Assembly (NCBI GenBank): GCA_030765065.1 | Contig: CM060990.1 | Coordinates: 415,037,198-415,101,197 of the forward strand | DNA from: Deroplatys truncata | Lineage: Eukaryota > Arthropoda > Insecta > Mantodea > Mantidae | Length of the DNA stretch: 64,000 bases | Reading direction: 5' to 3' | Shown: positions 32,125 through 64,000 of the stretch, piece by piece | Position numbering within the stretch: the first letter of the stretch is position 1 | Layout of the letters: the number at the start of each line of letters is the position of its first letter | Made by a program: the position numbers and the translations under genes | Notes under the pieces: model-generated | What the model was told of the DNA's origin: nothing | Databases searched by the model: none | The model's input: the letters and a program-made list of their open reading frames with translations, nothing else

Positions 32125-32161
32125 GATTAACTACGAATGATCATTTTCTTTTTTGTCGAGC

Positions 32162-32851: not shown

Positions 32852-32885
32852 GTTAACAACTAACTTATAAAATGTATGTGCGATG

Positions 32886-32939
32886 TTTATATATTACCGG
32901 ATGTAAAGTAGTTAATGATTGAATGCAATGATATAAAAG
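32886..32939. promoter_or_regulatory. Divergent TATA boxes between ATPase and minor capsid genes
   Basis: TATATAAA on minus (32,886-32,893) lies 35 bp upstream of the ATPase ATG. TATAAAAG on plus (32,932-32,939) lies 34 bp upstream of the ATG at 32,973. The 120-bp gap therefore looks like a compact two-way promoter for packaging and capsid genes. Confidence 0.65.
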
Positions 32940-32972
32940 GGCTAATGCATGCAATTACTCGCTTAGTATATC

Positions 32973-33680: not shown

Positions 33681-33682
33681 CG

Positions 33683-34025: not shown

Positions 34026-34043
34026 AGCTGCTAAATCGTCAAG

Positions 34044-34697: not shown

Positions 34698-34824
34698 AAG
34701 ACATCGCAAATACTATAATAGACGACGTACACCACGTTCGAAGCATACTACCTCTCCAGCTTCCGAGGAGTTAACACGTGCTAACCGCAGGTTCCTCGAG
34801 GGGTTAGGTTACAGGACGCTATAA
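34681..34824 (+). CDS. Small arginine-rich protein overlapping penton and MCP genes
   Basis: 47 residues starting MAIHFKRHRKYYNRRRTPRS. It overlaps the penton-like gene at its start, and its stop overlaps the major capsid ATG (TAATG). Very basic N-terminal half, so it may bind DNA. The tight overlaps argue for translation coupling or a real gene, but the length makes this uncertain. Confidence 0.45.
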   Translation: MAIHFKRHRKYYNRRRTPRSKHTTSPASEELTRANRRFLEGLGYRTL

Positions 34825-36035: not shown

Positions 36036-36039
36036 TTAT

Positions 36040-36560
36040 GCATATGTTTGGGTGAATGGTTTTTGTGAAGGAATGTACTAGGATAAGGTTATGAATAATA
36101 AATTGAATTTATATACTAAAACACTCTTTTATTGACTTTAGCATACATTTCAAGCATTTTCCTTCTCCCCCTCCTACCCCTGAAAAACTAATCCCTCCTG
36201 ACTTGCAGAAATCATGTAAAATATTCAAATGTCTTTCAATATAGGGCAATAGCCGTTTTAGGTTCCTTACACCCTCAATGTCTAAAGATATTACATTATT
36301 ATTTAAACAAGTATTTATGAAATGAATTGAATGTTCAAAAATACAATAATATTGTATGCATAAATTACATTGTCACAATATACATCACACGCAAACTTTT
36401 TTGTTTGGCGTAGGTAATCTTCAATCATTGGAATGTTTGTGGATATTATATCCCAGTCTGATTTTGTAATATAAACAAATGATTTATCACTTTCACAATT
36501 TATGTAGAGGGAGGGGATGTCCTAGTATAGTCCAATGTTTACGGAATGGGAGGGGGAGAT
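36040..36560. other. No gene seen
   Basis: AT-rich gap between the convergent major capsid and accessory genes. AATAAA-like words at about 36,090-36,105 would suit the end of the capsid transcript. A TGACGTCA site lies just inside the accessory gene side (36,563-36,570). Confidence 0.4.
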
Positions 36561-36570
36561 GCTGACGTCA

Positions 36571-37714
36571 TCAAGCGCATGTGATCGATTCTCCATGCTC
36601 CTCCAGCAAATGCAGGGTATCTTCAATGAATAAGAAGACCATAGGACCCTCGTTGAGGATCCTCCTCTTACACCTTCTCTTCTGCTTTTTCTCCCCAGTC
36701 TCGTTCTGCCTCTTCCACCGCTCCCTCCTCACATCCCTGCAACATATATTCAAAACAATGTTAAAAATAGGTTTAGTTAATGATTTCATGCGTCTGGAAG
36801 AGAAAATACATATATTAGAAAAATCCTCTCCCCTTGTCACACAAAAAGTACTATTAAAGAGTGTCATACTCACTTCACGGGTTTGCACGATTCTGTGTGT
36901 ATCTCGGGCGAGCAATCTGGAGTCGTCTGATTTATCCACTCCTGTACCCTCGTTGCTTTATCATCAGGGGTAGTAGTAATGGCGGGTTGTGGAGCGGTAT
37001 CCTCATCCATAGGCTGCGCATGGCGCTCTGAGATTGGATATTCTACTATATCGACATCGCGTCTCTCAGGATCCAGCTCCTCTATTGGCACGGGTACCTT
37101 AGGTGCAGTCATTCGCAGTCTGTAGTAATTGAATTTTAGGTTAGACACAGAGTAGCATTAGAAGCAGTAAATGAATATGTAATTTAACATTTCTTCTACT
37201 TACTCGAGTTTTCTCTTCCTGCGCTGGTAGACCACGCAGTTGTCATTTCATAGGAAGAGGGATGTCATGCGTTCATACTGGGCTGGGTTAGTACAAAGCA
37301 CAGAATGCATGTATCCGGTGCACGACTCTGTATCACATTCAGCTAGATGTTTCGAGACGAAGACATCGTCAACTTCATCGACATCGCTAAGATCCTCCAC
37401 ATCATCACCCATGCGATTTTCACTGAAAGAATAAAATAATTTCAAGTTAGATTTCATTTAGCATGCGTACAATATATTACAGAGTTATAGAAAATAAAAT
37501 GTATTACTTATACGTTCGCTCCTCGATAAACAGGAAAGCTCTCTGTACACACTTCCAGTGTAGTCATCTGATCATGATGCGATGGTTGAGTACACAATAC
37601 TGAATGCATTAAACTATTGCATGTTTCGGTATGGAAGTATACGTAGTGAAAATAATCTTCTCCGCACTCGCTCCAGTAATCATTCACATCAGATGCACGA
37701 TTATCACCAGCCAT
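36571..37714 (-). pseudogene. Multi-exon accessory gene near the right TIR, function unknown
   Basis: Four exon-like blocks on minus at about 37,514-37,714, 37,204-37,422, 36,874-37,119 and 36,571-36,736 are bounded by plausible donors (GTAAGT, GTGAGT) and acceptors. The first two are related. Both carry a Cys-rich acidic stretch and an MHSVLCT-P-----MT-L pattern (SLMHSVLCTQPSHHDQMTTL; GYMHSVLCTNPAQYERMTSL), so an exon was duplicated. The third is acidic and proline-rich. The last is basic (KKQKRRCKRR, possible nuclear signal) and ends in an IEDTLHLLEEHGES helix. Position next to the TIR resembles early regulatory genes of adenovirus-like genomes, but function is not recognised. May carry about one break. 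Confidence 0.55.
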
Positions 37715-37776
37715 TTCGATTATCACTGAACGAACACTGAAAAAACAATAAATGATCGCTCTGGCTGCCGGCGTTC

Positions 37777-37802
37777 CTTATATACTGTAGACGGTGACGT
37801 CA
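37777..37802 (-). promoter_or_regulatory. TATA box and CRE-like site of the accessory gene
   Basis: TATATAAG (minus, 37,777-37,784) lies about 65 bp upstream of the accessory ATG at 37,714. A perfect TGACGTCA palindrome (37,795-37,802), the binding word of ATF/CREB proteins, lies 10 bp farther upstream. The layout fits an inducible early-type promoter; this is inferred. Confidence 0.6.
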
Positions 37803-37910
37803 CGCGGCGGTGGAGGGGGCGGAATGCATGTTGGGACCTGATATTCACCCTCCAGGCAGAAGCCAGGTGTCTGTTTTTGAATACATAGGAAAGCCATTGG
37901 CGAGCGTGTT

Positions 37911-38946
37911 TTAACATGATTTATCGACGCAGACAGGGTGGAGCCGAGCTAGTCTACACATCGAAACTTGTTAGTGACGTCACGCACACAGCCGTGGAGT
38001 GGGGGTGAAACTTGTTATTACCAGACAGAAGTCGGCTGCCGGGTTTTTCATTACATGACGGACTGTTGCCGGAGAGGGGTTAAGACCGTGAGCGTGATAG
38101 TTATACATATGCTAGTACACATATACGACGGCGACCAGGTGCGCGCGAGTCAATTCATATACACTTAATTACATTAATCAATCAAAAATACTTAATCGTA
38201 TTCATCGATCGACGAGCCGCGTTTAATTGGTCGACGAGCAGCGTTTAATAACCTCACTCCTTTAGAGACATGATGGCCGGACATTAGCAGTATATAAACA
38301 TTGATTCTTTTTTTTCAATAACACATTACCTAATTGATTGACACAATTATGTAATCAAACGATTTGCCGATGGGCGGCAGGCATCGAGAAAACCATTCCC
38401 TACCACACACCTCACCAGGGGTGGGATTTAGACAGGACGCTATGAGAGCGGGATGACGTCGCCAGCGTATAGGAACAATAGACACTCTCCCACCTATCCG
38501 CAGGGGAACCAATCACACGGAGGGGATTTAGAGAAGTCACAATGAGGGGGGGCGGGAATGTAACCAGCGTATAGGAACAATACACACTCTCCCACCTATC
38601 CACAGGGAACCAATCAGACCACAAAGGGGAGGGAGGGTGCGCACCCAGCGTATGGAAACAATACACACTCTCCCACCTATCCACAGGGAACCAATCAGAC
38701 CACAAAGGGGAGAGAGGGGCTACCGGCACGCGACCAGACCACATGGGGGAGGGGGTAGGACCTTACGACACAGACCCTGTCGGCATTAGGTAAGCCCACA
38801 AAGGGAGGGGGCGGGGCTAGCGGCCCGCGCGACCAGGCGGCATCTAAGCCCTCAAAGGGAGGGGGCGGGGCTTGTCGGCATAGAACAAAGAATCTTATCA
38901 GTTGTCGGCATCTGTTTGTGGCTCCGTATTGGCCTTTATGTCTACT
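37911..38946 (-). repeat. Right terminal inverted repeat of Polinton 1
   Basis: Inverted partner of the left TIR. It is about 100 bp longer, mainly because an internal unit containing TATCCACAGGGAACCAATCA is present one more time (about 38,590-38,690). It ends ...TCTACT at 38,946, followed by the target duplication. A TGACGTCA site lies at 37,975-37,982, mirroring the left one. Confidence 0.92.
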
Positions 38947-39129
38947 GTGCGACAAGTGTGTTTTTTTGGCTTTTACAAATCAGTTAATCCTGAAGCGGGT
39001 GTGCCTAATAATGTTATGTGAACGGGAGTGCTGGCGCATTCGGTGGGCCACATTCAGCTGCCATTAAATTGATACATAAGTTGCTGCTAGTTCCAAATGA
39101 TTGTATTTTTTATGTTACTGTGCTTTTTT

Positions 39130-45019: not shown

Positions 45020-46780
45020 CAGTAGAAGTGTAAAGGTCGTTTTTAGTACTGAAAATGTCCTGTCTGATAGGAGGCAAAATCTAAAAGTGGGTTATTTTAA
45101 AAAACGGGATACTTTTACTATGTAAAATGAATAACCGTTATTGACTGGCAAAATGTATTGTGTATTGAAAGTGATACGGTGCGCTAATGTAATACACAAT
45201 ATTGTTCATACAGTGCTTTGGTTAGGTCTGATTATTTATGTATTAATATCCGAGTATCGGAAATGTTATTTTGATTAAATACTCCACGATTCAAATGTAT
45301 TATTTCAATTGGTAACAAGAAACATCGTATTGTCGCCTTCTGCACACTGCCGTAAATGTTTTATCATTTAATTTGACGATTTTTGTTCCTATTTTGCTTG
45401 CTCAGTTTAAGTGTTTAGTACCTTTTTGCCTGCCTATTTTTAACTTTTTATGCGATTAGCATCTGGTATTTAATCATCAGTGGCGACTTCCCGCGGTGCC
45501 GTATGCAGTAAGGACGGGCACTAAACTCTACTAAAATAGCCAAAGAATAGCGCAGTGTACAATGGGTGGAAGGGATATACATATAATTCTTTAAATCACA
45601 GAGACACCAGTGAGTTCTTTGAAAACGTTCAAAGACTTAGAAAGTATTTTCCTTGTCTTTTATATAATTTTGTTGTAGAAAAATGTTTTGGTAAAGGAGA
45701 TAATTGGCTGTACACGTTTTCCTTCGACGGAATAAGAAAATGATTTTTTGAGGTGTAGGAAACGAATGGTTTACAATAGAATGTGTGCTGAGTTTCTGAA
45801 AGTGGCTGCAGACTACGCTTACGTTACTGCAATACGGAAATTAAATTAGTTTACCTAGTTTATCTGATGCCTAAAACAGTCCTTCATGTATTTATTGAAT
45901 TTTTATATCCACAATAAAATCGGCTAAACAAAGTACACGTGTTTTTACTTTGGCTGAAGGAACAAAATCATAGGTTTTATAATTGAAAATTTTTACTTAT
46001 ACACATTTAATGTAAAAACAAACTAGGTAGATTCTATGATATACAAAAAATTTCAAAATTGAATAATTGAAAACGAATAAAATATATTAATATTATATCT
46101 ATATATAATTGGTAAACCAAATCAAATTACTATTTCATATCAGCCATTTAGAGGCACACACCGAAACAAAACCAGACAATTTATTTATACTCTTAATAAT
46201 AGAAGCTTAAATCTAATTTATATAAATTTTATTTAAACATGCAACAACAAAGCATATAGCTCGCAATATCACAAATACATAGGACTGACGAATGTCAGGT
46301 AGCACGCACCTTCAAGACTTAGTTACAATCCATTTGCTTTTGCATAAATTATTATCAATACCTACAAAATAATAACACTAGTAGGAAAATGGTTCCTCAA
46401 TCACAGATAATCCTTACTGGATTAAAAGTAAACTAATCCGCTCTCAATCCAAATTTGTTTTAGCGATTTCTATTAGTGAATAATAATTTTAAGAAGTCAT
46501 ACAGATGTGGTTTTTAATTTGGGATGCCGCTCGATTCTGGACATGTGTGAAAATGTTTTAGGGTATATGGATTAGAATTATCAATAACGTTTAAAAATAT
46601 ATACTATCTATTTTACACGGAGATGTGCCCTCCGAAATTTTTGTTCGATTCCTCATTTATATATGATTTTTTTGAAGTAAGATTAATCCGGCTGTCATTT
46701 GTAAATATCGGCCTTAATCCCTGTCGCCTGGCATGGGACAAATGGGATTGAGGTGTAATTTCATGAAGAGTCCAAATATG
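45020..46780. other. AT-rich stretch, no gene recognised
   Basis: No supported gene. A short frame at 45,555-45,743 has no recognisable motif. The sequence immediately before 46,788 is the left flank of the palindromic element, with AATTAC as its presumed target site. Confidence 0.35.
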
Positions 46781-46787
46781 TAATTAC

Positions 46788-47700
46788 AGTAGAAAATAAA
46801 TGAGAGAACGGAGCCATTAAGGATATGCCGCCATCTGATAAGCTTCTTTGATCTATGCCGCTAGCACCGCCCCCTCCCTTTGAGGCCTCACATGCCGCCC
46901 CGGTCGCGTGGCGCTAGCCCCGCCCCCTTCCCTTTGTGGCCTCACCTAATGCCGACAGTGTCTGTGCCGGCAGGTCCTCCCCCCCTCCCCCTGTGGTCAC
47001 GTGCCGGTGACCCGCCCCCCTCCCTACCCCATACGCGTACCCTCCCTCCCCTTTGTGGTTTGATTGGTTCCCTGTGGATAGGTGGGAGAGTGTGTATTGT
47101 TCCTATACGGTGACTACATTCCCGCCCCCTCATTGTGACTTGTCTAAATCCCTGCCGTGTGATTGGCTTGGGGTAGGGGATGTGCCGCTCGGGGTGAGGG
47201 GTTATATGTGAGGGTTCTCGGTGCGTGACGTTGGCGATGTGGGAATGCGATTCTCGATGCCTGCCGCACATCGGCAAATCGTTTGAGTACATAATTGCGT
47301 CAATCAATTAGGTAATGTGTGTTATTGAAAAAAAAAATAAGAATGCCCATCATATTACTACTAATGCAATTAAACGCTATTCTTCGAGCAATTAAGTATT
47401 TTTGATTGAATCGCGCGCACCTGCCCCTAAACCGTTACTTATAACCTACTATTGTCAATAAATTACACGTCTAATGAAACAAGGCTAGTCTGTCGATGAA
47501 AACAATTAAGTATTTTTGAATGATTAATTGACTCGCACGCAACTGTTCGTTATCGTATATGTGTGGTAGCATGTGTATAATTATTACGAGTAATAACATT
47601 TATTTAATTCTACTTTTGAGGGAAAATATATTTTGGATTTATAAGAATATTACAACACTTAGATGAAAGGACAGACTTGACGTAACACTCGTTATCGCGT
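46788..47700 (+). repeat. Left terminal repeat of element 2, homologous to Polinton 1 TIR
   Basis: Shares with 19,213-19,960 the order of GC-rich words: CTATGCCGCTAGCACC, CCCGCCCCCTCATTGTGAC, GATTGGTTCCCTGTGGATAG, then CTGCCGCACATCGGCAAATC and CAATCAATTAGGTAAT. The iterated GACTCGCACGCAACTGTTCG motif follows. It lies in the same orientation as the left TIR of Polinton 1. Confidence 0.85.
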
Positions 47701-48628
47701 GATAATTGCGGTGGAACACCGACCGCAACCTTCCGCTGCGAGACGTTTCACTGGAATGACTGGCTCACGGTGCTTTCAAGCGACAAGTCGACTAGCGCAC
47801 CCCCTCCACTCACGCTTCAGTTCGCTACCTACACTAGCGCGCCAAGTGGTAATATGAGTGAAACTCCAGCGAGTGTTCCCTCACAGCGCCCCTGGTGGTC
47901 ATACCCGAAAGTTGTGAATTCACCATATTTAAACTCATTATGGGTGCAAGACGGCCATCTTAACTCTATATAATTCTGCGAAATATGATTCCGGAAAAAA
48001 AATAAAGGTGAATTAACATGCGAGGTGCGTTCATGTTGGCTCCGGAGGAATTGATTATGAAATAAATAAAAAATAAATAAGACTCTCGCTGATCGATGAA
48101 TACAATTAAATATTTTTATTAATTAATGTAATTGACTCGCGCTCCTAGAGATATCTCACCCAATTATTCATCTACCATGAATATCTCACTTCTAATGAAA
48201 CGACGCAGTCTATCGATTAAAAACAATTAAGTTTTTTTTGATTGATTAATGTAATTGAATCGCGCGCAACTGTTCGTTATCGTATATGCGCGATTATTAC
48301 GAGTAATAACGTATCGATTAAAAACAATTAAGTTTTTTTTGATTGATTAATGTAATTGACTCGCGCGCAAATGTTCGTTATCGTGTATGCGCGATTATTA
48401 CGAGTAATAACGTTTGTTTAATTCTTCTTTTGAATTGAGGGTTTATAAAAAATATTACATTGCTTAGATGAATTAAAAGCCTGCATATCGGAGTACGCTC
48501 CAACTGACGTTAAAAATAAAAGCCCGCTATGTCTCTTCTCACACGAGAGAAGTAATAATTACAATTCAAAACAGGCATACCTGTAAGTAACACGCACGAA
48601 GACTTCAAATATAAATTTTATATTCGTT

Positions 48629-48907
48629 TTAAATGTTCTTTCTAAAGACGTAGCGAACTTTGAGAAATTCAACGAATTATTCACTTGCGTACACTGCTTG
48701 AAAGAAATATGGTGTACACCCCTGAAGAATGCATATGTAGACACATTAGCAGGCGACAGTTCCTTCCGCACCATTAATTATCTTCAGACGAAGGTAAAAC
48801 CATGGTCTTGTATAGAGCTCTTAGTGAACAATGACACTCGTTTCCAGTTCATTAAGCAGGCTAAGTGCTCTGAAAAACCACAGACCCTCGGGGTAAATAA
48901 CGATTAG
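48629..48907 (+). CDS. Conserved frame of about 92 residues, possible exon (left arm)
   Basis: Open frame with CVHCLKEIWCTPL and INYLQTKVKPWSCIELLV, then FQFIKQAKCSEKPQTLG, kept open in both arms. There is no ATG at its start, and a donor-like CTGTAAGT lies 40-50 bp upstream, so it may be an internal exon rather than a whole gene. Its last third (CTAAGTGCTCTGAAAAACC) is recognisable in worn, duplicated form at 20,880 and 21,115 of Polinton 1. The product is not recognised; the paired cysteines could bind metal. Confidence 0.35.
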   Translation, partial: LNVLSKDVANFEKFNELFTCVHCLKEIWCTPLKNAYVDTLAGDSSFRTINYLQTKVKPWSCIELLVNNDTRFQFIKQAKCSEKPQTLGVNND

Positions 48908-49399
48908 CGACACAAAAGATTTTCTTAAGAGCTTCCCCCGTGCAGAAATTCCATCATAGACAGTGGAAAACCAAGTCTAGACATGTTTTAAGCTTACCAC
49001 AAAAAATGTTTTCCCGATAATTAATATAATTCTACATGAAGAATATTAATGATTAAGTTTTCAATTAAACGTATACTGTATAGATTCTGTACTTAAACAT
49101 TCGATTGTATCTTTGTCATTATTTAAATACTCGCGTACAAGAAATGCAAACATGATATCAAAAAATTAAACTGATTTTTTTTCGGAATGTTAAACAAAGA
49201 AATATGATTTGGCGAGAGTAATATGAAGAATAAAAAGTATTCAGAATGATAGATATTACATACGTTATTAAAATAAATAAGGCTCTCGCTGATCGATGAA
49301 AACAATTAAATATTTTTTTATTAATTAATTGTATATGAATTGACTCGCGCATTTGCTTGCTGTCGTATGTGCATGATTATTACGACTAATAGCATTTGT

Positions 49400-50700
49400 T
49401 TAATTCTAAATAATGAAATATGGAGCCTTGCCTAAACAATCCTCGTTACTCTTAATTTATTCCATTTTAAAAAGATTGGGCTTAGTAAACATAGGACGAG
49501 TACGATTTTAAATACCCCGTCCATTCGAGAGATATTTTTCGAATATTCCAGCATGTTAATATAAACTTAATACACACACACAAAAAATTCATTTCAAGTA
49601 ATATTTGTGCGACATTAAGTATTTGCGACTGAGTTTTTACTTTCTATACTACGTATAGTAAGTAGAGGAAGTGTTGTATTCCACCCGAAAAAAATCGATA
49701 CCGAGATTTCAACGGAAATACATGTTTTGAGACCCTCTGAATCCGAAAAAAGCATGGTTGTCTGCGAGTGCGCCTGTGAAACATAACTCAGAAACGAAGA
49801 GGCGGATAAAACACCAAACTTGGAATTTAGGTTCAGTATCTTCCAGAGATGCGACACGAAGGTTTTAAAGAAAATGCCTCACACCAGACTACCCTTTACA
49901 TGGAACATTTCTCGAAAATTTTAATTTTCTCAAAAATGACTCTAACGATATTGAATAAAATATTATATGTTTAAGATATTGTAATGAGAAATTAAATGTA
50001 TATCCCGAATTTTCAGGGAATGTCACCCAAAGTATTCTTCATTCTGAACGACTTTTGCAAAACTGATAAACCATAAGAGATAGACAAAAATTTTACTACA
50101 CAAAAAAAAATGGAGATCGCGTTAAAATACATAATTTATAACATATACATTCTTGTTGATGAGTAAATCGTTTTTGAGATATTGCTTGTTATTCCCTTAA
50201 AATTTCCAATACTTATACTTTTTCTCAAATTCGTTATTCTTGTTTTTATGTTCTGGACATGCAAAGAGAATGGAATGCGGCACATAGCAATCAGCGTTAA
50301 AATAATTTGACTATCGCTTAAAACCTATCATATTCACCTTGTATCGTCATGAAAATTACCAATAACATTGACATCTCGATATCTCGATTAACATGAAGCA
50401 TATAGGGAATAAGTGTTTGTAAAAATAGTTTGTACAAGAGTAGAGAAAGTCATGTGAGTGTAACACATCAGATTTTTTGATATTGGTTTAAATTTTCAAA
50501 TACTTTTAACTTTTCTCAAATGGTAATTTGCTATTCGTTTTTCCAACGGTAATGCATAGAGAATAGAATTCTAAAGCCATCACATAGCATCAGACGTTTT
50601 TTAAACATCTGTAACGTATCTATTCACAATCGAAAGGTTGCTGGTTCGAGGACAATTATATCTACAGAAACAATACATTATTTTCACTCTGTGATTAATT
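49400..50700. other. Gene-free part of the arms
   Basis: AT-rich, with A/T-run words and no supported gene; mirrored at about 61,020-62,320. It includes CACACACACAC-like and TA-rich simple repeats. It has no clear match in Polinton 1, so it may be an insertion or a diverged segment. Confidence 0.4.
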
Positions 50701-50979
50701 TGGTAATGTAACAATAATTAACAATGAATTTTAATGGTACATGTAAAAAATAAAATATATTTTTTATTTCCTAGCGTCATACGCAGAAACATTCCCCATA
50801 AGGAACGCGGCGTGATCGAAGGATTTCCCCCATAACAGGTTTAGACGTGCTCACGAAATGCCCCTGTGCGAGGCTTGTTTTTCCCTCTCCTTCTCGAATT
50901 TTTGGAGTAGCCAATCAAAATCGTTGTATTATATATCTTAAACTTTCACTCATACATTTTTTATATCGCAAAAGAACAC

Positions 50980-51099
50980 TATAAAAAGGCTGCTTCGTCG
51001 GGAAATCTCACAGTTTCTCCGCTGAAATCAACGAGTTAAGGTCTCTGCAAACTTTTCTCATTCAAAGTGAAATTTCAACGAACATCATGTCTGGTAAGT
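50980..51099 (+). promoter_or_regulatory. TATA promoter, leader exon and donor (left arm; mirrored at 60,627-60,740)
   Basis: TATAAAAAG at 50,980-50,988, leader exon ATGTCTG at 51,087-51,093, donor GTAAGT at 51,094-51,099. The same module precedes pPolB in Polinton 1 (22,716-22,835), and about 280 bp upstream is also shared, including GTGCGAGGCT and CCAATCAAAATCG. Confidence 0.75.
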
Positions 51100-52087
51100 T
51101 GTAACAAAACACTTCATTTACTTTTAAAAGTTAAATTATTTCTCTGTACATTTAACTTATATTCGCGTTCTTGTTTTTAATGCATGGCATTTATATGCGA
51201 ATAGCTGAGCATTCTAAAAGTTAATAGCTAGACAAGTGAATTTTCTGAAATGTGAATAGTTTAGTTAAGTATTCATTTTAGGTAAGCTTATTCTACATTT
51301 AATAGCTAACTGCGCGAATTCTCAAAATGGGGACAATTTAGTTAAGTATTCACCTTGTTGAGTAATTATTATTCCAGATATTTAAATACAGAATTTCACA
51401 GAGTGAATTATATTCCTTTTTGGAGAAAATACAATTATTTGAATACCTTATTAACGTTTTTGCTTTAGAATATTACAAAAAGTCTGTTGCGCGAATCATT
51501 CGCTCTAACAAAGTAAATATCTACATTATATTAAAACATTTAAATTGAAAAATACAGTACTTAATGAACTTCATTAGTGAATCAGAACCTCAATTATATT
51601 TACACATATTATCATTTTCAGAAAAAAGTTAATAATTTTGTAACTTTCAAATAAATGAAATTTTGTTATGCAACACATTCTCTAATAAAGAATATGTTTT
51701 TTTTCTCTTCCTAATGCAGAAAGTTTGACATCTCAACTTAACACATTGGCTGAGGGTAGCATTTACCCAGCCGTTCAAAGACTACAAGATCTTCAGCCCG
51801 AGGAGCCTTATAATATAAAATCCTTAAGAAAAATCGATACTCGATACGGTGCTAGAGTCGTTGCACTTTTAGAGAATAAGCAAGTGTTTCTCCCGACAAG
51901 ATATTCAACCCTAACAAGCCAACAGTTGGAGGAAATGCCAGGGAAGTTTCAAATGGTATATCATGGAGTAGTACCAGCCGGCAAGTTTAAGACATGTAAA
52001 TTGTCTTTTCTTCCTATTAAGGTTTGTAGAAATAATTCAACTATCATTTCAAAGCTTCATTTAGAGTTACATTCGTTGAGTTTATAA
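51087..52087 (+). CDS. Small spliced gene, YxIKSLRKIDTRYG protein (left arm)
   Basis: Exon 1 is the seven bases ATGTCTG (51,087-51,093). An intron of 626 bp runs from GTAAGT to TAATGCAG, and exon 2 is 51,720-52,087. The frame continues without interruption to give about 124 residues. Conserved-looking core: LQDLQPEEPYNIKSLRKI, TRYGARVVALLENKQVFLP and EEMPGKFQMVYHGVV. I have a memory of similar small proteins scattered in insect genomes near Polintons, but no named family. The short beta-rich pattern could suit a small nucleic-acid-binding fold; that is a guess. It looks whole. It shares its leader exon with the polymerase gene of Polinton 1. Confidence 0.7.
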
Positions 52088-52094
52088 ATTCACA

Positions 52095-52430
52095 CTTCAG
52101 TAGGATAACATTTGTCTAAAGTATACATCAATATGTAAAAAAATAACGTCCAGGATGTAGTCTGAGCGAGGATCTGCAGAAAGAAGTTTAATAGTCTATT
52201 CACTGATTCTTTACCTCAAAGCAGATACCTACAGCAAGTTTCAAATAATTTCCAGCGGGATAGCACTTGTCAAAAGCATGCATCACTGTATTAAAAAAAT
52301 ATGTGTAAATAATGTCTAGATTGTACTCTGTGTGATTTCGTGCAGAAAGAAGTTTAATACCCCTTGCAATGATTCTCCACATCGAAGTATATACCTACAA
52401 GAAGCTGCAAATAATGTGAATGTGTGTGTT
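52095..52430. repeat. Worn tandem duplication of about 160 bp (mirrored at 59,290-59,630)
   Basis: Two related units share AGAAAGAAGTTTAATA, ATACCTACA and a GATAACATTTGTC/GATAGCACTTGTC word. On minus one unit stays open as IIARGIKLLSARNHTEYNLD and DKCYPAGNYLKLAVG, ending near a donor-like GGTAAAG. It could be a repeated exon of the tail-motif gene or a dead fragment. Function is not recognised. Confidence 0.45.
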
Positions 52431-52599
52431 ACAGGAATGCCCAGATGAATGTAAATGAAGAGGAAGAACGAGATAGCTTAAAACATCATAAACAGAAATG
52501 TGATAGGAACATTCTCAACACCTCCCAGTAACCTCAATCAATGAAGAATTGCAGCAGCGCGGAACATACATGGAAAAAACATCAGCGTGTGTAGAATAT

Positions 52600-52644
<45 letters not shown>

Positions 52645-53162
52645 TATGTACCCATTATTACTGCTATACCAGCCTATACAATTGATTTCATAAATAATTT
52701 CATAATTGTTTAAGGAGAATGCCTATCTTAAAAACATTGATGCTACATAAATTCTAAACAAAAAGATTATTGAACTATTACTGAAAGAGACTTGAATAAA
52801 TGGGAATCTAGAAGCCAGAACCATCTTAATATTGGGCTGTATGATATGAGGTGTATAAAAAGATTAATAAAAAAATGAGGTCTATGTAATATAAACAACA
52901 TTTATTTTTATAAACATTTTCCTATTACATTCCTATACAAAAAAACATACATATTTCCTAAAGACAAAGGTGATAGTCTAGACATTCTAAAACACACAGT
53001 TATATAATCATATACATCACACAGAAAGAGACCTGCATTATCCATAAAAAACTAAACATCTCAAGAATGTCTGGATGATGTATTTTATAAGTACAAGGTT
53101 TTGATATTTCAAAGTTCCTGTTAACCATGACTGTAATTGATTAACACAATTTCTCGATCCTG

Positions 53163-53630
53163 TCATGCTATAACTTTAGAAGCTTTCAGCTTACTTATAA
53201 TCTCCTCAATCTCTAGTGTGTGACTATTATTACCAGCATTCCTCGATGCAATTAGTAACCTCAATATATTTACTAGTCTATTTGGATTTTCAAGCGTAGA
53301 TATCACTGAATCATCATCATATGAAGATTTCATATTCTCGCGACTCCCGCTGTATCCAGATTTTTCACCATCAGTAGTCTCCAGTGAAGGACAGAGGCTT
53401 GATCCGGTATAACATCCCCCTCTATACATCTTCGGATCTTCGAGTGTAGGAGAGAGAGTCGATCCAGTATAACATGTTGCTCTATGAAGCTTAAATCTTG
53501 ACAAAGAACGATTCTTAAAAATCCGCGCGCATATACAGCATCTAATGACGTGTTTTCCTCCATGTGTAATGTATGAAAAATTGAGTTTCTCATTCGCAAG
53601 TTGCACAGATTTTCTCCGGCAGGAGCTCAT
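53163..53630 (-). CDS. Zinc-finger-like protein with the LRLLIAS tail (left arm)
   Basis: 155 residues starting MSSCRRKSVQLANEKLNF. A Cys/His module (RCCICARIFKNRSLS, then H-R-A-T-C, pattern C-x2-C-x14-H-x3-C) resembles a C2H2-type finger with a final Cys. Two related acidic-serine repeats follow (CYTGSTLSPTLED; CYTGSSLCPSLET). The tail LVNILRLLIASRNAGNNSH plus EIEEII-KLKASKVIA matches the tail of the Polinton 1 protein at 30,275-30,595. It looks whole. It is transcribed away from the palindrome centre and converges on the spliced gene. An AATAAA-type signal sits about 270 bp after the stop. Function unknown; DNA binding is likely from the finger. Confidence 0.75.
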   Translation of the reverse strand: MSSCRRKSVQLANEKLNFSYITHGGKHVIRCCICARIFKNRSLSRFKLHRATCYTGSTLSPTLEDPKMYRGGCYTGSSLCPSLETTDGEKSGYSGSRENMKSSYDDDSVISTLENPNRLVNILRLLIASRNAGNNSHTLEIEEIISKLKASKVIA

Positions 53631-53768
53631 GCTAAAACTAAAAGAAATTAAATGAATACGGGAATGCTAACGCTCGAAGGAATTAAAAGCGAATGAATGA
53701 ATTCATAACACGCAGCTATGTATATATGCAGGGTAAAGACGCCGGAGGGAATCGCGATCTACGCATAG

Positions 53769-54213
53769 CAGCGGGAAAAGGATGCTCTCTGGAAACATTT
53801 GTGGAGAAGGAGGCTCTCAACAGAACATAACGAGTGCGAGCATGAGAAAGGATGCTCTCTGGAAACATTCGTGGAAAAGGATGCTCTCAACAGAACATGG
53901 CGACTGCGAGCATGGAAAAAGGATGCTCTCTGGAAACATTCGTGGAAAAGGATGCTCTCAACAGAACATGGCGACTGCGAGCATGGAAAAAGGATGCTTT
54001 CTGGAAACATTCGTGGAAAAGGATGCTCTCAACAGAACATGGCGAATGCGAGCATGGAAAAAGGATGCTCTCTGGAAACATTCGTGGAAAAGGATGGTCT
54101 CAACAGAACATGGCGACTGCGAGCATGGAAAAAGAATGCTCTCTGGAAACATTCGTGGAAAAGGATGCTCTCAACAGAAAATGGCGACTGCGAGCATGGA
54201 AAAAGGATGCTCT
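53769..54213 (+). repeat. 71-bp tandem repeat array, left of centre
   Basis: About six and a half copies of a 71-bp unit (words GGATGCTCTCTGGAAACATT, CAACAGAACATGGCGACTGC) with few differences. Since 71 is not a multiple of three, all three frames stay open, which creates overlapping protein-like readings that are not genes. Same array in inverted orientation at 57,511-57,957. Confidence 0.9.
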
Positions 54214-57200
54214 TGTTACAAAGCCTGATCACTTTGGTACATAGCGTGATTCCTTTGTTACATATCGTGATTCCTTTGTTACATAGCGTGATTCCTTTGT
54301 TACATAGCGTGATTCCTTTGTTACATAGCGTGATCCCTTTGTTACATAGCTTGATTCCTTTGTTACATAGCGTGATCAGTTTGTTACATAGCGTGATTCC
54401 TTTGTTACATAGCGTGATTCCTTTGTTACATAGCGTGATCCCTTTGTTACATAGCTTGATCAGTTTGTTACATAGCGTGATGAGCTTGTTACATAGCTTG
54501 ATTCCTTTGTTACATAGCGTGATCAGTTTGTTTCATAGCGTGATGAGCTTGTTACAAAGCGTGATTCCTTTGTTACTTAGCGTGATCAGTTTGTTACATA
54601 GCGTGATTCCTTTTGTTACATAGCGTGATCCCTTTGTTACATAGCGTGATCCCTTTGTTGCATAGCGTGATTCCTTTGTTACATAGCTTGATTCCTTTGT
54701 TACATAGCGTGATCAGTTTGTTACATAGCGTGATGAGCTTGTTACATAGCGTGATTCCTTTGTTACATAGCGTGATCTGTTTGTTACATAGCGTGATTCC
54801 TTTGTTACATAGCGCGAACAGGTTGTTACATAGCGTGATCCCTTTGTTACATAGCGTGATGAGCTTGTTACATAGCTTGATTCCTTTGTTACATAGCGTG
54901 ATCAGTTTGTTACATAGCGTGATGAGCTTGTTACATAGCGTGATTCCTTTGTTACATAGCGTGATTCCTTTGTCACATAGCGTGATCCCTTTGTTACATA
55001 GCGTGATTCCTTTGATACATAGCCTGATCAGTTTGTTACATAGCGTGATCAGTTTGTTAAATAGCGTGATTCCTTTGTTACATAGCGTGATCCCTTTGTT
55101 ACATAGCGTGATGAGCTTGTTACATAGCTTGATTCCTTTGTTACATAGCGTGAACAGTTTGTTACATAGCGTGATGAGCTTGTTACATAGCGTGACTCCT
55201 TTGTTACATAGCGCGATTCCTTTGTTACATAGAGTGATTCCTTTGTTACATAGCGTGATTCCTTTGTTACATAGCCTGATCAGTTTGTTACATAGCGTGA
55301 TCAGTTTGTTTCATAGCGTGATTCCTTTGTTACATAGCGTGATGAGCTTGCTACATAGCGTGATCACTTTGTTACATAGCGTGATGCCTTTGTTTTATAG
55401 CGTGATTCCTTTGTTACATAGCGTCATCAGTTTGTTACATAGCGTGATTCCTTTGTTACATGGCGTGATCTGTTTGTTACATAGCGTGATTCCTTTGTTA
55501 CATAGCGTGATCCCTTTGTTACATAGCGTGATCAGTTTGTTACATAGCGTGATGAGCTTGTTACATAGCGTGATTCCTTTGTTACATAGCGTGATCTGTT
55601 TGTTACATAGCGTGATTCCTTTGTTACATAGCGTGATCCCTTTGTTACATAGCGTGATGAGCTTGTTACATAGCTTGATCAGTTTGTTACATAGCGTGAT
55701 CAGTTTGTTACATAGCGTGACCTGTTTGTTACATAGCGTGATTCCTTTGTTACATAGCGTGATTCCTTTGTTACATAGCGCGAACAGGTAGTTACATAGC
55801 GTGATTCCTTTGTTACATAGCGTGATCAGTTTGTTACATAGCGTGATGAGCTTGTTACATAGCGTGATTCCTTTGTTACATAGCGTGGATTCTTTGTTAC
55901 ATAGCGTGATTCCTTTGTTACATAGCGTGGATTCTTTGTTACATAGCGTGATCCCTTTGTTACATAGCGTGATTCCTTTGTTACATAGCCTGATCAGTTT
56001 GTTACATAGCGTGATCAGTTTGTTACATAGCGTGATTCCTTTGTTACATAGCGTGATTCCTTTGTTACATAGCGTGATGAGCTTGTTACATAGCTTGATT
56101 CCTTTGTTACATAGCGTGATCAGTTTGTTACATAGCGTGATGAGCTTGATACATAGCGTGATTCCTTTGTTACATAGCGCGATTCCTTTGTTCCATAGAG
56201 TGATTCCTTTGTTACATAGCGTGATTCCTTTGTTACATAGCCTGATCAGTTTGTTACATAGCGTGATCAGTTTGTTACATAGCGTGATTACTTTGTTACA
56301 TAGCGTGATTCCTTTGTTACATAGCGTGATGAGCTTGCTACATAGCGTGATCACTTTGTTACATAGCGTGATCCCTTTGTTACATAGCGTGATTCCTTTG
56401 TTACATAGCGTGATCAGTTTGTTACATAGCGTGATTCCTTTGTTACATAGCGTGATTCCTTTGTTACATAGCGTGATTCCTTTGTTACATAGCTTGATTC
56501 GTTTGTTACATAGCGTGATCAGATTGTTACATAGCGTGAACGGCTTGTTACATAGCGTGATTCCTTTGTTACATACCGTGATCTGTTTGTTACATAGCGT
56601 GATTCCTTTGTTACATAGCGTGATCCCTTTGTTACATAGCGTGATCAGTTTGTTACATAGCGTGATGAGCTTGTTACATAGCGTGATTCCTTTGTTACAT
56701 AGCGTGATTCCTTTGTTACATAGCGTGATTCCTTTGTTACATAGCGTGATCCCTTTTTTACATAGCTTGATGAGTTTGTTACATAGCTTGATCAGTTTGT
56801 TACATAGCGTGATCAGTTTGTTACATAGCGTGATCTGTTTGTTACATAGCGTGATTCCTTTGTTACATAGCGTGATTCCTTTGTTACATAGCGCGAACAA
56901 GTTGTTACATAGCGTGATTCCTTTGTTACATAGCGTGATCCCTTTGTTACATAGCGTGATGAGCTTGTTACATAGCTTGATTCCTTTGTTACATAGCGTG
57001 ATCTGTTTGTTACATAGCGTGATTCCTTTGTTACATAGCGTGATTCCTTTGTTACATAGCGCGAACAGGTTGTTACATAGCGTGATTCCTTTGTTACATA
57101 GCGTCATTCCTTTGTTACATAGCGTGATTCCTTTGTTACATAGCGCGAACAGGTTGTTACATAGCGTGATTCCTTTGTTACATAGCGTGATCCCTTTGTT

Positions 57201-57510
57201 ACATAGCGTGATGAGCTTGTTACATAGCTTGATTCCTTTGTTACATAGCGTGATCAGTTTGTTACATAGCGTGATGAGCTTGTTACATAGCGTGATTCCT
57301 TTGTTACATAGCGTGATTCCTTTGTTACATAGCGTGATCCCTTTGTTACATAGCGTGATTCCTTTGTCACATAGCGTGATCAGTTTGTTACATAGCGTGA
57401 TGAGCTTGGTACATAGCGTGATTCCTTTGTTACATAGCGTGATCAGTTTGTTACATAGCGTGATTCCTTTGTTACATAGCGTGATTCCTTTGTTACATAG
57501 CGTGATCAGC
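54214..57510. repeat. 21-bp tandem array at the palindrome centre, about 157 units
   Basis: Unit of 21 bp with an almost fixed half (GTTACATAGC) and a variable half (GTGATTCC, GTGATCAG, GTGATGAGC, GTGATCCC, GTGATCTG, GCGAACAGG, TTGATTCC). Variants recur in a fixed order over blocks of several units, so higher-order duplication built the array. It runs in one orientation and forms the non-symmetric spacer of the palindrome. Both strands stay open because seven-codon units (plus VIPLLHS, minus LCNKGIT) lack stops. I see no reason to call a protein. Confidence 0.92.
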
Positions 57511-57957
57511 ACGAATGTTTCCAGAGAGCATCCTTTTTCCATGCTCGCAGTCGCCATGTTCTGTTCAGAGCATCCTTTTTCACGAATGTTTCCAGAGAGC
57601 ATCCTTTTTCCATGCTCGCAGTCGCCATGTTCTGTTGAGAGCATCCTTTTCCACGAATGTTTCCAGAGAGCATCCTTTTTCCATGCTCGCAGTCGCCATG
57701 TTCTGTTGAGAGCATCCTTTTCCACGAATGTTTCCAGAGAGCATCCTTTTTCCATGCTCGCAGTCGCCATGTTCTGTTGAGAGCATCCTTTTCCACGAAT
57801 GTTTCCAGAGAGCATCCTTTTTCCATGCTCGCAGTCGCCATGTTCTGTTGAGAGCATCCTTTTCCACGAATGTTTCCGGAGAGCATCCTTTCTCATGCTC
57901 GCACTCGTTATGTTCTGTTGAGAGCCTCCTTCTCCACAAATGTTTCCAGAGAGCATC
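57511..57957 (-). repeat. 71-bp tandem repeat array, right of centre
   Basis: Inverted partner of the array at 53,769-54,213, about six copies. The innermost unit, next to the 21-bp array, differs most. Confidence 0.9.
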
Positions 57958-58107
57958 CTTTTCCCGCTGCTATGCGTAGATCGCGTTTCCCTCCGGCGTC
58001 CTTACCCTGGATATATACATAGCTGCGTGTTATGAATTCATTCATTCGCTTTTAATTCCTTCGAGCGTTAGCATTCCCGTATTCATTTAATTTCTTTTAG
58101 TTTTAGC

Positions 58108-58575
58108 ATGAGCTCCTGCCGGAGAAAATCTGTGCAACTAGCGAATGAGAAACTCAATTTTTCATACATTACACATGGAGGAAAACACGTCATTAGATGC
58201 TGTATATGCGCGCGGATTTTTAAGAATCGTTCTTTGTCAAGATTTAAGCTTCATAGAGCAACATGTTATACTGGATCGACTCTCTCTCCTACACTCGAAG
58301 ATCCGAAGATGTATAGAGGGGGATGTTATACCGGATCAAGCCTCTGTCCTTCACTGGAGACTACTGATGGTGAAAAATCTGGATACAGCGGGAGTCGCGA
58401 GAATATGAAATCTTCATATGATGATGATTCAGTGATATCTACGCTTGAAAATCCAAATAGACTAGTAAATATATTGAGGTTACTAATTGCATCGAGGAAT
58501 GCTGGTAATAATAGTCACACACAAGAGATTGAGGAGATTATAAGTAAGCTGAAAGCTTCTAAAGTTATAGCATGA
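58108..58575 (+). CDS. Zinc-finger-like protein with the LRLLIAS tail (right arm)
   Basis: Mirror copy of the left-arm gene, 155 residues, differing by one residue in the tail (HTQEIEEI here, HTLEIEEI on the left; the glutamine form agrees with the Polinton 1 relative). A TATATAC word about 95 bp upstream may be its TATA box. An AATAAA lies at about 58,831, after the stop. It looks whole. Confidence 0.75.
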   Translation: MSSCRRKSVQLANEKLNFSYITHGGKHVIRCCICARIFKNRSLSRFKLHRATCYTGSTLSPTLEDPKMYRGGCYTGSSLCPSLETTDGEKSGYSGSRENMKSSYDDDSVISTLENPNRLVNILRLLIASRNAGNNSHTQEIEEIISKLKASKVIA

Positions 58576-59632
58576 CAGGATCGAGAAATTGTGTTAATCA
58601 ATTACAGTCATGGTTAACAGGAACTTTGAAATATCAAAACCATGTACTTATAAAATACATCATCCAGACATTCTTGAGATGTTTAGTTTTTTATGGATAA
58701 TGCAGGTCTCTTTCTGTGTGATGTATATGATTATATAACTGTGTGTTTTAGAATGTCTAGACTATCACCTTTGTCTTTAGGAAATATGTATGTTTTTTGT
58801 ATAGGAATGTAATAGGAAAATGTTTATAAAAAATAAATGTTGTTTATATTACATAGACCTCATTTTTTTATTAATCTTTTTATACACCTCATATCATACA
58901 GCCCAATATTAAGATGGTTCTGGCTTCTAGATTCCCATTTATTCAAGTCTCTTTCAGTAATAGTTCAATAATCTTTTTGTTTAGATTTCATGTAGCATCA
59001 ATGTTTTTAAGATAGGCATTCTCCTTAAACAATTATGAAATTATTTATGAAATCAATGGTATAGGCTGGTATAGCAGTAATAATGGGTACATAATTTATA
59101 TATATATATATATTATTGTTATATTCTACACACGCTGATGTTTTTTCCATGTATGTTCCGCGCTGCTGCAATTCTTCATTGATTGAGGTTACTGGGAGGT
59201 GTTGAGAATGTTCCTATCACATTTCTGTTTATGATGTTTTAAGCTATCTCGTTCTTCCTCTTCATTTACATTCATCTGGGCATTCCTGTAACACACACAT
59301 TCACATTATTTGCAGCTTCTTGTAGGTATATACTTCGATGTGGAGAATCATTGCAAGGGGTATTAAACTTCTTTCTGCACGAAATCACACAGAGTACAAT
59401 CTAGACATTATTTACACATATTTTTTTAATACAGTGATGCATGCTTTTGACAAGTGCTATCCCGCTGGAAATTATTTGAAACTTGCTGTAGGTATCTGCT
59501 TTGAGGTAAAGAATCAGTGAATAGACTATTAAACTTCTTTCTGCAGATCCTCGCTCAGACTACATCCTGGACGTTATTTTTTTACATATTGATGTATACT
59601 TTAGACAAATGTTATCCTACTGAAGTGTGAAT

Positions 59633-60633
59633 TTATAAACTCAACGAATGTAACTCTAAATGAAGCTTTGAAAGGATAGTTGAATTATTTCTACAAACCT
59701 TAATAGGAAGAAAAGACAATTTACATGTCTTAAACTTGCCGGCTGGTACTACTCCATGATATACCATTTGAAACTTCCCTGGCATTTCCTCCAACTGTTG
59801 GCTTGTTAGGGTTGAATATCTTGTCGGGAGAAACACTTGCTTATTCTCTAAAAGTGCAACGACTCTAGCACCGTATCGAGTATCGATTTTTCTTAAGGAT
59901 TTTATATTATAAGGCTCCTCGGGCTGAAGATCTTGTAGTCTTTGAACGGCTGGGTAAATGCTACCCTCAGCCAATGTGTTAAGTTGAGATGTCAAACTTT
60001 CTGCATTAGGAAGAGAAAAAAAACATATTCTTTATTAGAGAATGTGTTGCATAACAAAATTTCATTTATTTGAAAGTTACAAAATTATTAACTTTTTTCT
60101 GAAAATGATAATATGTGTAAATATAATTGAGGTTCTGATTCACTAATGAAGTTCATTAAGTACTGTATTTTTCAATTTAAATGTTTTAATATAATGTAGA
60201 TATTTACTTTGTTAGAGCGAATGATTCGCGCAACAGACTTTTTGTAATATTCTAAAGCAAAAACGTTAATAAGGTATTCAAATAATTGTATTTTCTCCAA
60301 AAAGTAATGTAATTCACTCTGTGAAATTCTGTATTTAAATATCTGGAATAATAATTACTCAACAAGGTGAATACTTAACTAAATTGTCCCCATTTTGAGA
60401 ATTCGCGCAGTTAGCTATTAAATGTAGAATAAGCTTACCTAAAATGAATACTTAACTAAACTATTCACATTTCAGAAAATTCACTTGTCTAGCTATTAAC
60501 TTTTAGAATGCTCAGCTACTCGCATATAAATGCCATGCATTAAAAACAAGAACGCGAATATAAGTTAAATGTACAGAGAAATAATTTAACTTTTAAAAGT
60601 AAATGAAGTGTTTTGTTACAACTTACCAGACAT
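59633..60633 (-). CDS. Small spliced gene, YxIKSLRKIDTRYG protein (right arm)
   Basis: Mirror copy: leader exon at 60,627-60,633, exon 2 at 59,633-60,000, same splice sites, differing in one residue near the C-terminus (STILSK versus STIISK). It looks whole. Two intact copies in opposite arms suggest either recent duplication or conversion between arms. Confidence 0.7.
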
Positions 60634-62813
60634 GATGTTCGTTGAAATTTCACTTTGAATGAGAAAAGTTTGCAGAGACCTTAACTCGTTGATTTCAGCG
60701 GAGAAACTGTGAGATTTCCCGACGAAGCAGCCTTTTTATAGTGTTCTTTTGCGATATAAAAATGTATGAGTGAAAGTTTAAGATATATAATACAACGATT
60801 TTGATTGGCTACTCCAAAAATTTGAGAAGGAGAGGGAAATGCTAGCCTCGCACAGGGGCATTTCGTGAGCACGTCTAAACCTGTTATGGGGGAAATCCTT
60901 CGATCACGCCGCGTTCCTTAAGGGGAATGTTTCTGCGTATGACGCTAGGAAATAAAAAATATATTTTATTTTTTACATGTACCATTAAAATTCATTGTTA
61001 ATTATTGTTACATTACCAAATTAATCACAGAGTGAAAATAATGTATTGTTTCTGTAGATATAATTGTCCTCGAACCAGCAACCTTTCGATTGTGAATAGA
61101 TACGTTACAGATGTTTAAAAAACGTCTGATGCTATGTGATGGCTTTAGAATTCTATTCTCTATGCATTACCGTTGGAAAAACGAATAGCAAATTACCATT
61201 TGAGAAAAGTTAAAAGTATTTGAAAATTTAAACCAATATCAAAAAATCTGATGTGTTACACTCACATGACTTTCTCTACTCTTGTACAAACTATTTTTAC
61301 AAACACTTATTCCCTATATGCTTCATGTTAATCGAGATATCGAGATGTCAATGTTATTGGTAATTTTCATGACGATACAAGGTGAATATGATAGGTTTTA
61401 AGCGATAGTCAAATTATTTTAACGCTGATTGCTATGTGCCGCATTCCATTCTCTTTGCATGTCCAGAACATAAAAAAAAGAATAACGAATTTGAGAAAAG
61501 TATAAGTATTGGAAATTTTAAGGGAATAACAAGCAATATCTCAAAAACGATTTACTCATCAACAAGAATGTATATGTTATAAATTATGTATTTTAACGCG
61601 ATCTCCATTTTTTTTGTGTAGTAAAATTTTTGTCTATCTCTTATGGTTTATCAGTTTTGCAAAAGTCGTTCAGAATGAAGAATACTTTGGGTGACATTCC
61701 CTGAAAATTCGGGATATACATTTCATTTCTCATTACAATATCTTAAACATATAATATTTTATTCAATATCGTTAGAGTCATTTTTGAGAAAATTAAAATT
61801 TTCGAGAAATGTTCCATGTAAAGGGTAGTCTGGTGTGAGGCATTTTCTTTAAAACCTTCGTGTCGCATCTCTGGAAGATACTGAACCTAAATACCAAGTT
61901 TGGTGTTTTATCCGCCTCTTCGTTTCTGAGTTATGTTTCACAGGCGCACTCGCAGACAACCATGCTTTTTTTCGGATTCAGAGGGTCTCAAAACATGTAT
62001 TTACGTTGAAATCTCGGTATCGATTTTTTTCGGGTGGAATACAACACTTCCTCTACTTACTATACGTAGTATAGAAAGTAAAAACTCAGTCGCAAATACT
62101 TAATGTCGCACAAATATTACTTGAAATGAATTTTTGTGTGTGTGTGTGTATTAAGTTTATATTAACATGCTGGAATATTCGAAAAATATCTCTCGAATGG
62201 ACGGGGTATTTAAAATCGTACTCGTCCTATGTTTACTAAGCCCAATCTTTTTAAAATGGAATAAATTAAGAGTAACGAGGATTGTTTAGGCAAGGCTCCA
62301 TATTTCATTATTTAGAATTAAACAAATGCTATTAGTCGTAATAATCATGCACATACGACAGCAAGCAAATGCGCGAGTCAATTCATATACAATTAATTAA
62401 TAAAAAAATATTTAATTGTTTTCATCGATCAGCGAGAGCCTTATTTATTTTAATAACGTATGTAATATCTATCATTCTGAATACTTTTTATTCTTCATAT
62501 TACTCTCGCCAAATCATATTTCTTTGTTTAACATTCCGAAAAAAAATCAGTTTAATTTTTTGATATCATGTTTGCATTTCTTGTACGTGAGTATTTAAAT
62601 AATGACAAAGATACAATCGAATGTTTAAGTACAGAATCTATACAGTATACGTTTAATTGAAAACTTAATCATTAATATTCTTCATGTAGAATTATATTAA
62701 TTATCGGGAAAACATTTTTTGTGGTAAGCTTAAAACATGTCTAGACTTGGTTTTCCACTGTCTATGATGGAATTTCTGCACGGGGGAAGCTCTTAAGAAA
62801 ATCTTTTGTGTCG

Positions 62814-63092
62814 CTAATAGTTATTTACCCCGAGGGTCTGTGGTTTTTCAGAGCACTTAGCCTGCTTAATGAACTGGAAACGAGTGTCATTGTTCACTAA
62901 GAGCTCTATACAAGACCATGGTTTTACCTTCGTCTGAAGATAATTAATGGTGCGGAAGGGACTGTCGCCTGCTAATGTGTCTACATATGCATTCCTCAGG
63001 GGTGTACACCATATTTCTTTCAAGCAGTGTACGCAAGTGAATAATTCGTTGAATTTCTCAAAGTTCGCTACGTCTTTAGAAAGAACATTCAA
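62814..63092 (-). CDS. Conserved frame of about 92 residues, possible exon (right arm)
   Basis: Mirror copy of the frame at 48,629-48,907, differing in a few residues (for example PLRNAY versus PLKNAY, GDSPF versus GDSSF) but still open. Same uncertainties as the left copy. Confidence 0.35.
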   Translation of the reverse strand: MNVLSKDVANFEKFNELFTCVHCLKEIWCTPLRNAYVDTLAGDSPFRTINYLQTKVKPWSCIELLVNNDTRFQFIKQAKCSEKPQTLGVNNY

Positions 63093-64000
63093 AACGAATA
63101 TAAAATTTATATTGAAGTCTTCGTGCGTGTTACTTACAGGTATGCCTGTTTTGAATTGTAATTATTACTTCTCTCGTGTGAGAAGAGACATAGCGGGCTT
63201 TTATTTTTAACGTCAGTTGGAGCGTACTCCGATATGCAGGCTTTTAATTCATCTAAGCAATGTAATATTTTTTATAAACCCTCAATTCAAAAGAAGAATT
63301 AAACAAACGTTATTACTCGTAATAATCGCGCATACACGATAACGAACAGTTGCGCGCGAGTCAATTACATTAATCAATCAAAAAAAACTTAATTGTTTTT
63401 AATCGATACGTTATTACTCGTAATAATCGCGCATATACGATAACGAACAGTTGCGCGCGATTCAATTACATTAATCAATCAAAAAAAACTTAATTGTTTT
63501 TAATCGATAGACTGCGTCGTTTCATTAGAAGTGAGATATTCATGGTAGATGAATAATTGGGTGAGATATCTCTAGGAGCGCGAGTCAATTACATTAATTA
63601 ATAAAAATATTTAATTGTATTCATCGATCATCGAGAGTCTTATTTATTTTTTATTTATTTCATAATCAATTCCTCCGGAGCCAACATGAACGCACCTCGC
63701 ATGTTAATTCACCTTTATTTTTTTTCCGGAATCATATTTCGCAGGTATTATATAGAGTTAAGATGGCCGTCTTGCACCCATAATGAGTTTAAATATGGTG
63801 AATTCACAACTTTCGGGTATGACCACCAGGGGCGCTGTGAGGGAGCACTCGCTGGAGTTTCACTCATATTACCACTTGGCGCGCTAGTGTAGGTAGCGAA
63901 CTGAAGCGTGAGTGGGGGGGGGTGCGCTAGTCGACTTGTCGCTTGAAAGCACCGTGAGCCAGTCATTCCAGTGAAACGTCTCGCAGCGGAAGGTTGCGGT

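Follow-up and report, generated by a model that had tools for sequence, protein, structure and literature searches.

The window analyzed here is a stretch of 64,000 nt of the Deroplatys truncata genome (C16:415,037,198-415,101,197, contig CM060990.1 of the 4.29-Gb assembly GCA_030765065.1). Its right part is occupied by a large palindrome, hereafter the mirror element, which extends from 46,788 to ~64,932 (~18.1 kb, arms of ~7.4 kb). The right end was read in flanking DNA, 932 bases past the window edge, the position predicted from the mirror being 64,934. The right arm (57,525-64,000), once reverse-complemented, aligns to 47,722-54,213 with 98.9% identity over 6,499 columns; 40 substitutions in ~6,490 bases and few indels separate the two, and 11 of these 40 fall in the innermost 500-base bin, mostly in 71-bp repeats. 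Between the arms lies a 3.3-kb array of 21-bp units running one way, with inverted 71-bp arrays on either side. Two small genes, a frame of 120 codons and a gene for 155 amino acids (155-aa gene), are each present twice, in mirrored orientation. The terminus at 46,788 (AGTAG...) matches both ends of a full-length Polinton situated in the same window, hereafter the neighboring Polinton (Table 1). These data agree with an original prediction made for this DNA, which had described a Polinton-type end at 46,788, inverted arms of at least 6.5 kb around a 3.3-kb tandem array, and two copies of each small gene.

A family of mirror elements in the genome

The genome was searched with the terminal inverted repeat (TIR) of the element. 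Of 3,518 candidates, 40 were scored, and 30 of these form 15 plus/minus pairs, 13.9-22.7 kb apart. The ten others are single; one of them, C7:194,722,259, is by its coordinates a Polinton left end, with a capsid gene 16.9 kb inward. Both sides were fetched for nine pairs and the left side for a tenth (C16_190). The mirror layout is present in all nine elements with both sides, so that the mirror in the window is not due to chance. Identity between the arms of one element is 98.9-99.9% in eight cases; in the ninth, C14_149, an insertion in the right arm splits the alignment into separate blocks of 99.0 and 99.6%. All nine have AGTAG termini and an exact 6-bp target duplication (compared by eye), i.e. 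the 6-bp duplication and AG...CT termini that characterize Polintons. The original prediction had proposed looking for other copies with the same layout and with their own 6-bp duplications, and both were found.

Copy number was approached with a 42-base probe taken from the 155-aa gene. With at most two mismatches it gave 1,976 matches over the whole genome (1,000 forward and 976 reverse), compared to none for the control. One hundred matches were listed, all mismatch-free and all on C1-C3, mismatched partners not being shown. Eighty-eight of these form 44 pairs, always in the order minus then plus and 1.3-12.2 kb apart; among the matches listed, no pair has another order. By chance, a neighbor within 15 kb is expected for ~1.4% of probe matches. 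The number of matches, together with their mirror pairing, therefore indicates roughly a thousand mirror elements in the genome. A tight packaging limit was also considered; neither the spacings of the TIR pairs nor those of the probe matches show one.

The centers of seven elements were read: the window, C16_354, C7_159, C12_94, C4_144, C16_430 and C14_149. A 21-bp array is present in all of them, 0.8-3.5 kb long and in either chromosomal direction. Six of the seven have an inverted 71/72-bp array on each side of it; in C7_159, such an array was listed by the repeat finder for one side only. Since all seven centers have the same 21-bp array, they point to one founder.

Table 1. Features of the window, positions in the 64,000-nt stretch
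Feature	Position	Strand	Basis or remark
Left arm (Polinton left-end sequence, two small genes)	46788..54213	+	alignment
Right arm, inverted copy of the left arm, runs on past the window to ~64,932	57510..64000	-	alignment
Outer terminal segment common to capsid-bearing Polintons; terminus AGTAG...	46788..47400	+	TIR comparison
120-codon frame, left copy; taken as an exon, with an upstream acceptor-like site (by eye)	51725..52087	+	
120-codon frame, right copy	59633..59995	-	
155-aa gene, left copy	53163..53630	-	C2HC-like finger (by eye) and C-terminal tail
155-aa gene, right copy	58108..58575	+	
71-bp tandem array, left of center	53776..54213	+	
Central one-way 21-bp tandem array, ~157 units	54213..57506	+	
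71-bp tandem array, right of center	57510..57962	-	
Flank segment duplicated at the right end (64,932-65,142, beyond the window)	46576..46786	+	
Neighboring full-length Polinton, helper type, separate from the mirror element; PolB in several separate frames	19213..38948	+	

Polinton left-end sequence in both arms

The arms align to the neighboring Polinton at both of its TIRs. Beyond the TIR, they align to stretches of its left side, between 20,498 and 23,105, and no alignment is listed on its right side. The flanks of this Polinton, GTACGA and GTGCGA, form a 6-bp duplication with one mismatch (by eye). The proposal that both arms are Polinton left ends is supported, because homology passes the TIR into left-specific DNA and because one variant, C14_149, has a 5' fragment of PolB in both arms. 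This fragment stands at the place of the 120-codon frame and is the clearest sign that the arm was once the left half of a Polinton. A mirror element carries one genome end twice, the copies facing each other, as in snap-back genomes; as in non-autonomous derivatives, its ends and subterminal sequence are shared with full Polintons of the same genome.

Core genes were searched with ten pieces of the neighboring Polinton, the protease not being among them. None matched the mirror element of the window, and the only match in the fetched pieces L021-L045 was that of PolB residues 2-213 (66%) in C14_149. In the pieces searched, the functions that define an autonomous Polinton, i.e. protein-primed PolB, retroviral-type integrase, and capsid and packaging genes, were accordingly not found. 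Two further statements of the original prediction, the lack of core replication and capsid genes and the derivation from a Polinton left half, are supported by these results.

The C-terminal tail of the 155-aa gene is also of Polinton type: its sequence is found in the neighboring Polinton, in the open reading frame upstream of the integrase. In another Polinton (L061) the corresponding frame and the 155-aa gene have 65 residues in common, with 61.5% identity. A third (L051) gave no match to the tail, the stretch being broken by an insertion between capsid gene and integrase, which we take to be a mariner-like transposase fragment. Repeated proline/glycine-rich exon-like units with splice-like borders were noticed in the neighboring Polinton, upstream of PolB (23,586-25,036), and in one mirror arm (L032, 4,819-5,830); the window mirror element showed none among its frames.

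Ends, arms and small genes

Candidate helpers were looked for through their capsid gene (query: window 35,067-36,032). All 124 matches scored are 97-100% identical and stop-free; they rank highest among 11,370 first-look candidates, a figure which is not a count of genes. Such near-identity suggests a large and recent Polinton expansion. In one place, C9:40,749,702 (-) and 40,764,596 (+), two opposed capsid genes lie ~14.9 kb apart and could represent two neighboring Polintons or a mirror which has kept its capsid gene. The TIR of mirror elements is 86-92% identical, over 558-632 columns, to that of all five capsid-bearing Polintons fetched for this comparison. For helper right ends, a terminus could be assigned by our criterion in 8 of 13 fetched and in none of the five others.

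For 21 mirror and 10 Polinton ends, a tree was built from the outer 260 bp. It places the two ends of an element as sisters in 8 of 10 pairs, 2 being without resolution. The mirrors do not form one clade: they fall in several groups among the Polintons, with 5 changes of label, at least 3 of which are forced by well-supported branches, and 0% of bootstraps have a single change. Identity between elements is 88-97% in the outer 2.5 kb compared to 95.5-99.8% further in (C1_293 against 8), and homology to Polintons extends inward beyond this variable outer part. Exchange of the outer parts with the helper pool, around a nearly clonal core, is the likely origin of this pattern.

The termini themselves were inspected in the window (46,788-46,917), L022, L024, L026 and L046-L058. 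The first ~28 bases are strongly variable between elements, whereas the two ends of any one element have the same or nearly the same bases there. Pairing is possible between bases ~24-35 and ~91-102, which apparently covary (by eye), and some copies carry an inverted AGTAG on the inner strand. Identities of ~0.61 for the first 28 bp and ~0.86 for bp 31-250 (11 rows) are approximate, C4_90L being offset by 15 bases, and were set aside.

Within elements, the arms are homogenized. A tree of a 2.5-kb inner segment, which left out C14_149 (its arm differs) and has one arm only for C16_190, contains nine elements with two arms; in all nine these arms are sisters, with bootstrap values of 98-100. Both arms of C12_94 lack the same ~116 bases, a private deletion which is found neither in seven other two-arm elements nor in the left arm of C16_190 nor in the window copy. 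In C16_430 both copies of the 155-aa gene carry the same 1-base frameshift. Substitutions between arms number 7-65 per 6.9-7.9 kb (eight elements). Homogenization is shown by these sister arms and by the private deletion and frameshift found in both arms; it may take place during replication, in a hairpin or on the chromosome.

The 120-codon frame is stop-free, with high identity, in 150 of 150 scored genome matches, a scoring which favors intact copies. Among 19 other arm pieces, 17 have it without a stop, and it is missing from the two pieces of C14_149. The 155-aa gene, in which a C2HC-like finger was read by eye, runs over its full length without a stop in 15 of 19 arm pieces. Its exceptions are the two frameshifted copies of C16_430 and the pieces of C14_149, with one partial match and one without, matches being found on both sides in the central piece of that element. 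Comparison between elements gives a ratio of non-synonymous to synonymous substitution rates (dN/dS) of 0.31 over 162 pairs of the 120-codon frame and of 0.67 over 128 pairs of the finger gene, the pairs not being independent; it suggests, at most, selection on the former only. The 120-aa product has no match in the protein collection. Both small genes and the capsid protein are without match in viral contigs, as is the arm in phages, and the small genes gave sub-threshold matches or none in Pfam, PHROGs and PDB. The predicted structure of the 120-aa product alone (predicted local distance difference test, pLDDT, of 37.5) was not used, and an OB-like label for this product was dropped as unsupported.

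A probable fold-back satellite of Polintons and its relation to known systems

We consider it quite probable that the mirror elements are trans-mobilized fold-back satellites of Polintons, in which each arm is recopied from the other and the ends are traded with helpers. They would probably spread as parasites of the full Polintons around them. The satellite genome would consist of a pair of Polinton left ends that have lost PolB and integrase, placed head to head with a spacer of tandem repeats in between. It would be replicated, probably, by the protein-primed PolB of full Polintons, which would recognize the satellite ends, and probably inserted by their integrase; the shared ends and the target duplications strongly suggest that it moves with the help of proteins from other Polintons. 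Single strands would fold into a hairpin with ~7.5-kb stems, and repair or copying across the hairpin would turn the arms, ends included, into copies of each other. Recombination in the outer part would swap ends with helper Polintons. The satellite may, in addition, be packaged in helper particles. A snap-back founding event, i.e. a template switch, would fit the structure, although it is unproven. More tentatively, and at somewhat less than even chances, the family may be a germline satellite at about a thousand loci, with a self-complementary genome whose arms are rewritten at each cycle by hairpin-templated copying, and which would keep up with its helpers by acquiring their termini (the protein-primed origin), following several helper lineages around a core that remains clonal.

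Several observations weigh against this interpretation. At the edges of the window copy there is no clean 6-bp target duplication: instead, 211 bp of flank (46,576-46,786) recur exactly at 64,932-65,142 as a direct duplication, and the right terminus is altered, with about three bases missing. A later small rearrangement at AATTA repeats would be one reading of these edges. The original prediction, of a snap-back derivative of a Polinton left half moving with the proteins of other Polintons, is partly supported: left-end arms, the lack of core-gene matches and other copies speak for it, and the target duplication it expected at the far end is found at other loci and not in the window copy. Twelve of the 100 listed probe matches are without a partner among the matches listed. 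The centers of C4_90, C1_293 (~6 kb) and C16_255 and most of C16_190 lie outside the core-gene result and may hold such genes. The 120-codon frame was not found among the frames of the neighboring Polinton, and a part of the arm is therefore without known source. The full Polintons are candidate helpers, recognized by their capsid gene. Mixing of ends is not free: labels are more clustered than when shuffled (mean 8.5; 1 of 500 shuffles as low, for the mirrors), as near-copies would give. The differences between arms are significantly clustered in 5 of 8 elements, mostly away from the center, which is also compatible with ordinary chromosomal gene conversion. Finally, the satellite is known here from assembled sequence alone.

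This clustering leads to a first competing explanation, in which the arms are alike only through gene conversion between palindrome arms after insertion, replication taking no part. The five clustered elements favor it, and so do several elements in which differences are fewest towards the center; in the three others differences are evenly spread, although with 7-19 substitutions such a comparison has little power. Conversion would, moreover, need to extend to the last bases of the element, whereas the element-variable termini are the same or nearly the same at both ends, as if copied before insertion. We judge this explanation improbable. A closer contender, still rather unlikely in our opinion, concerns the founding event: two Polinton left halves could have been joined head to head, by recombination or end joining between two molecules, rather than formed by snap-back of one. 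The final product would look alike, and the 71-bp and 21-bp central repeats offer homology for such a joining; the arms have been homogenized since, and no direct evidence favors one or the other.

Two other explanations carry very little weight. Capture of Polinton ends by a fold-back element of another transposon superfamily is suggested by the long, internally repeated inverted arms, which resemble those of Foldback, Galileo and Tetris. The extent of TIR identity with all five capsid-bearing Polintons, and a homology which enters left-specific Polinton DNA and, in one variant, PolB, make it most improbable; the mirror ends match Polintons, the ends of fold-back families being outside the comparison. 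Slightly less credible still is an error of assembly, through an inverted duplication or the collapse of haplotypes. The exact 211-bp duplication could be taken as a trace of one, but the window arms differ by 0.6% substitutions, the same layout occurs at nine other loci with different flanks and 6-bp duplications, and mirror pairs are found genome-wide.

Polintons are usually treated as self-sufficient virus-like transposons. If they are accompanied by a large family of fold-back satellites, then they resemble many viruses in having defective parasites, and the mirror family would be a natural record of protein-primed end exchange and of the maintenance of giant palindromes. The family also makes trans-mobilization of Polintons directly testable. 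No mirror-image or satellite Polinton is named in the titles and abstract openings listed, and the term non-autonomous Polinton is absent from the 15 entries examined for it, many subscription journals and Repbase being outside this search. According to extracts of a survey of vertebrate Mavericks, candidates started from integrase and PolB matches together (PMC8097293); surveys built in this way would miss mirror elements.

Compared with Polintons/Mavericks (adintovirus-like), mirror elements are alike in terminus, TIR, 6-bp duplication, left-end sequence, tail of the frame upstream of the integrase and size: in the same extracts, intact vertebrate Mavericks measure 12.7-24.6 kb, have 6-bp duplications, and end in TIRs whose length is 46-1,447 bp, with a mean of 402. 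They are unlike them in that the searched pieces matched neither PolB (apart from the 5' fragment of one variant) nor integrase, ATPase or capsid, in their arms of ~7.4 kb in place of these TIRs (PMC8097293), and in their tandem-array center. Snap-back defective genomes are known in adenovirus, and have been reported in adeno-associated virus (PMC8235507, in extract). With these, mirror elements share a mirror genome derived from one end of a virus genome and, presumably, helper dependence; they differ by integration at many loci, 6-bp duplications, helper-shared ends and a common array center. Fold-back transposons such as Foldback, Galileo and Tetris likewise have long inverted arms with internal tandem repeats; Tetris and Galileo are not known to be Polinton-derived. 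Galileo and Tetris (PMC4079207) are described, in the extracts available, as apparently non-autonomous. Miniature inverted-repeat transposable elements (MITEs) and other non-autonomous DNA transposons move in trans, using the ends of an autonomous relative. Unlike MITEs, mirror elements reach 18 kb, carry mirrored genes which are mostly open, and have ends common to several helper lineages.

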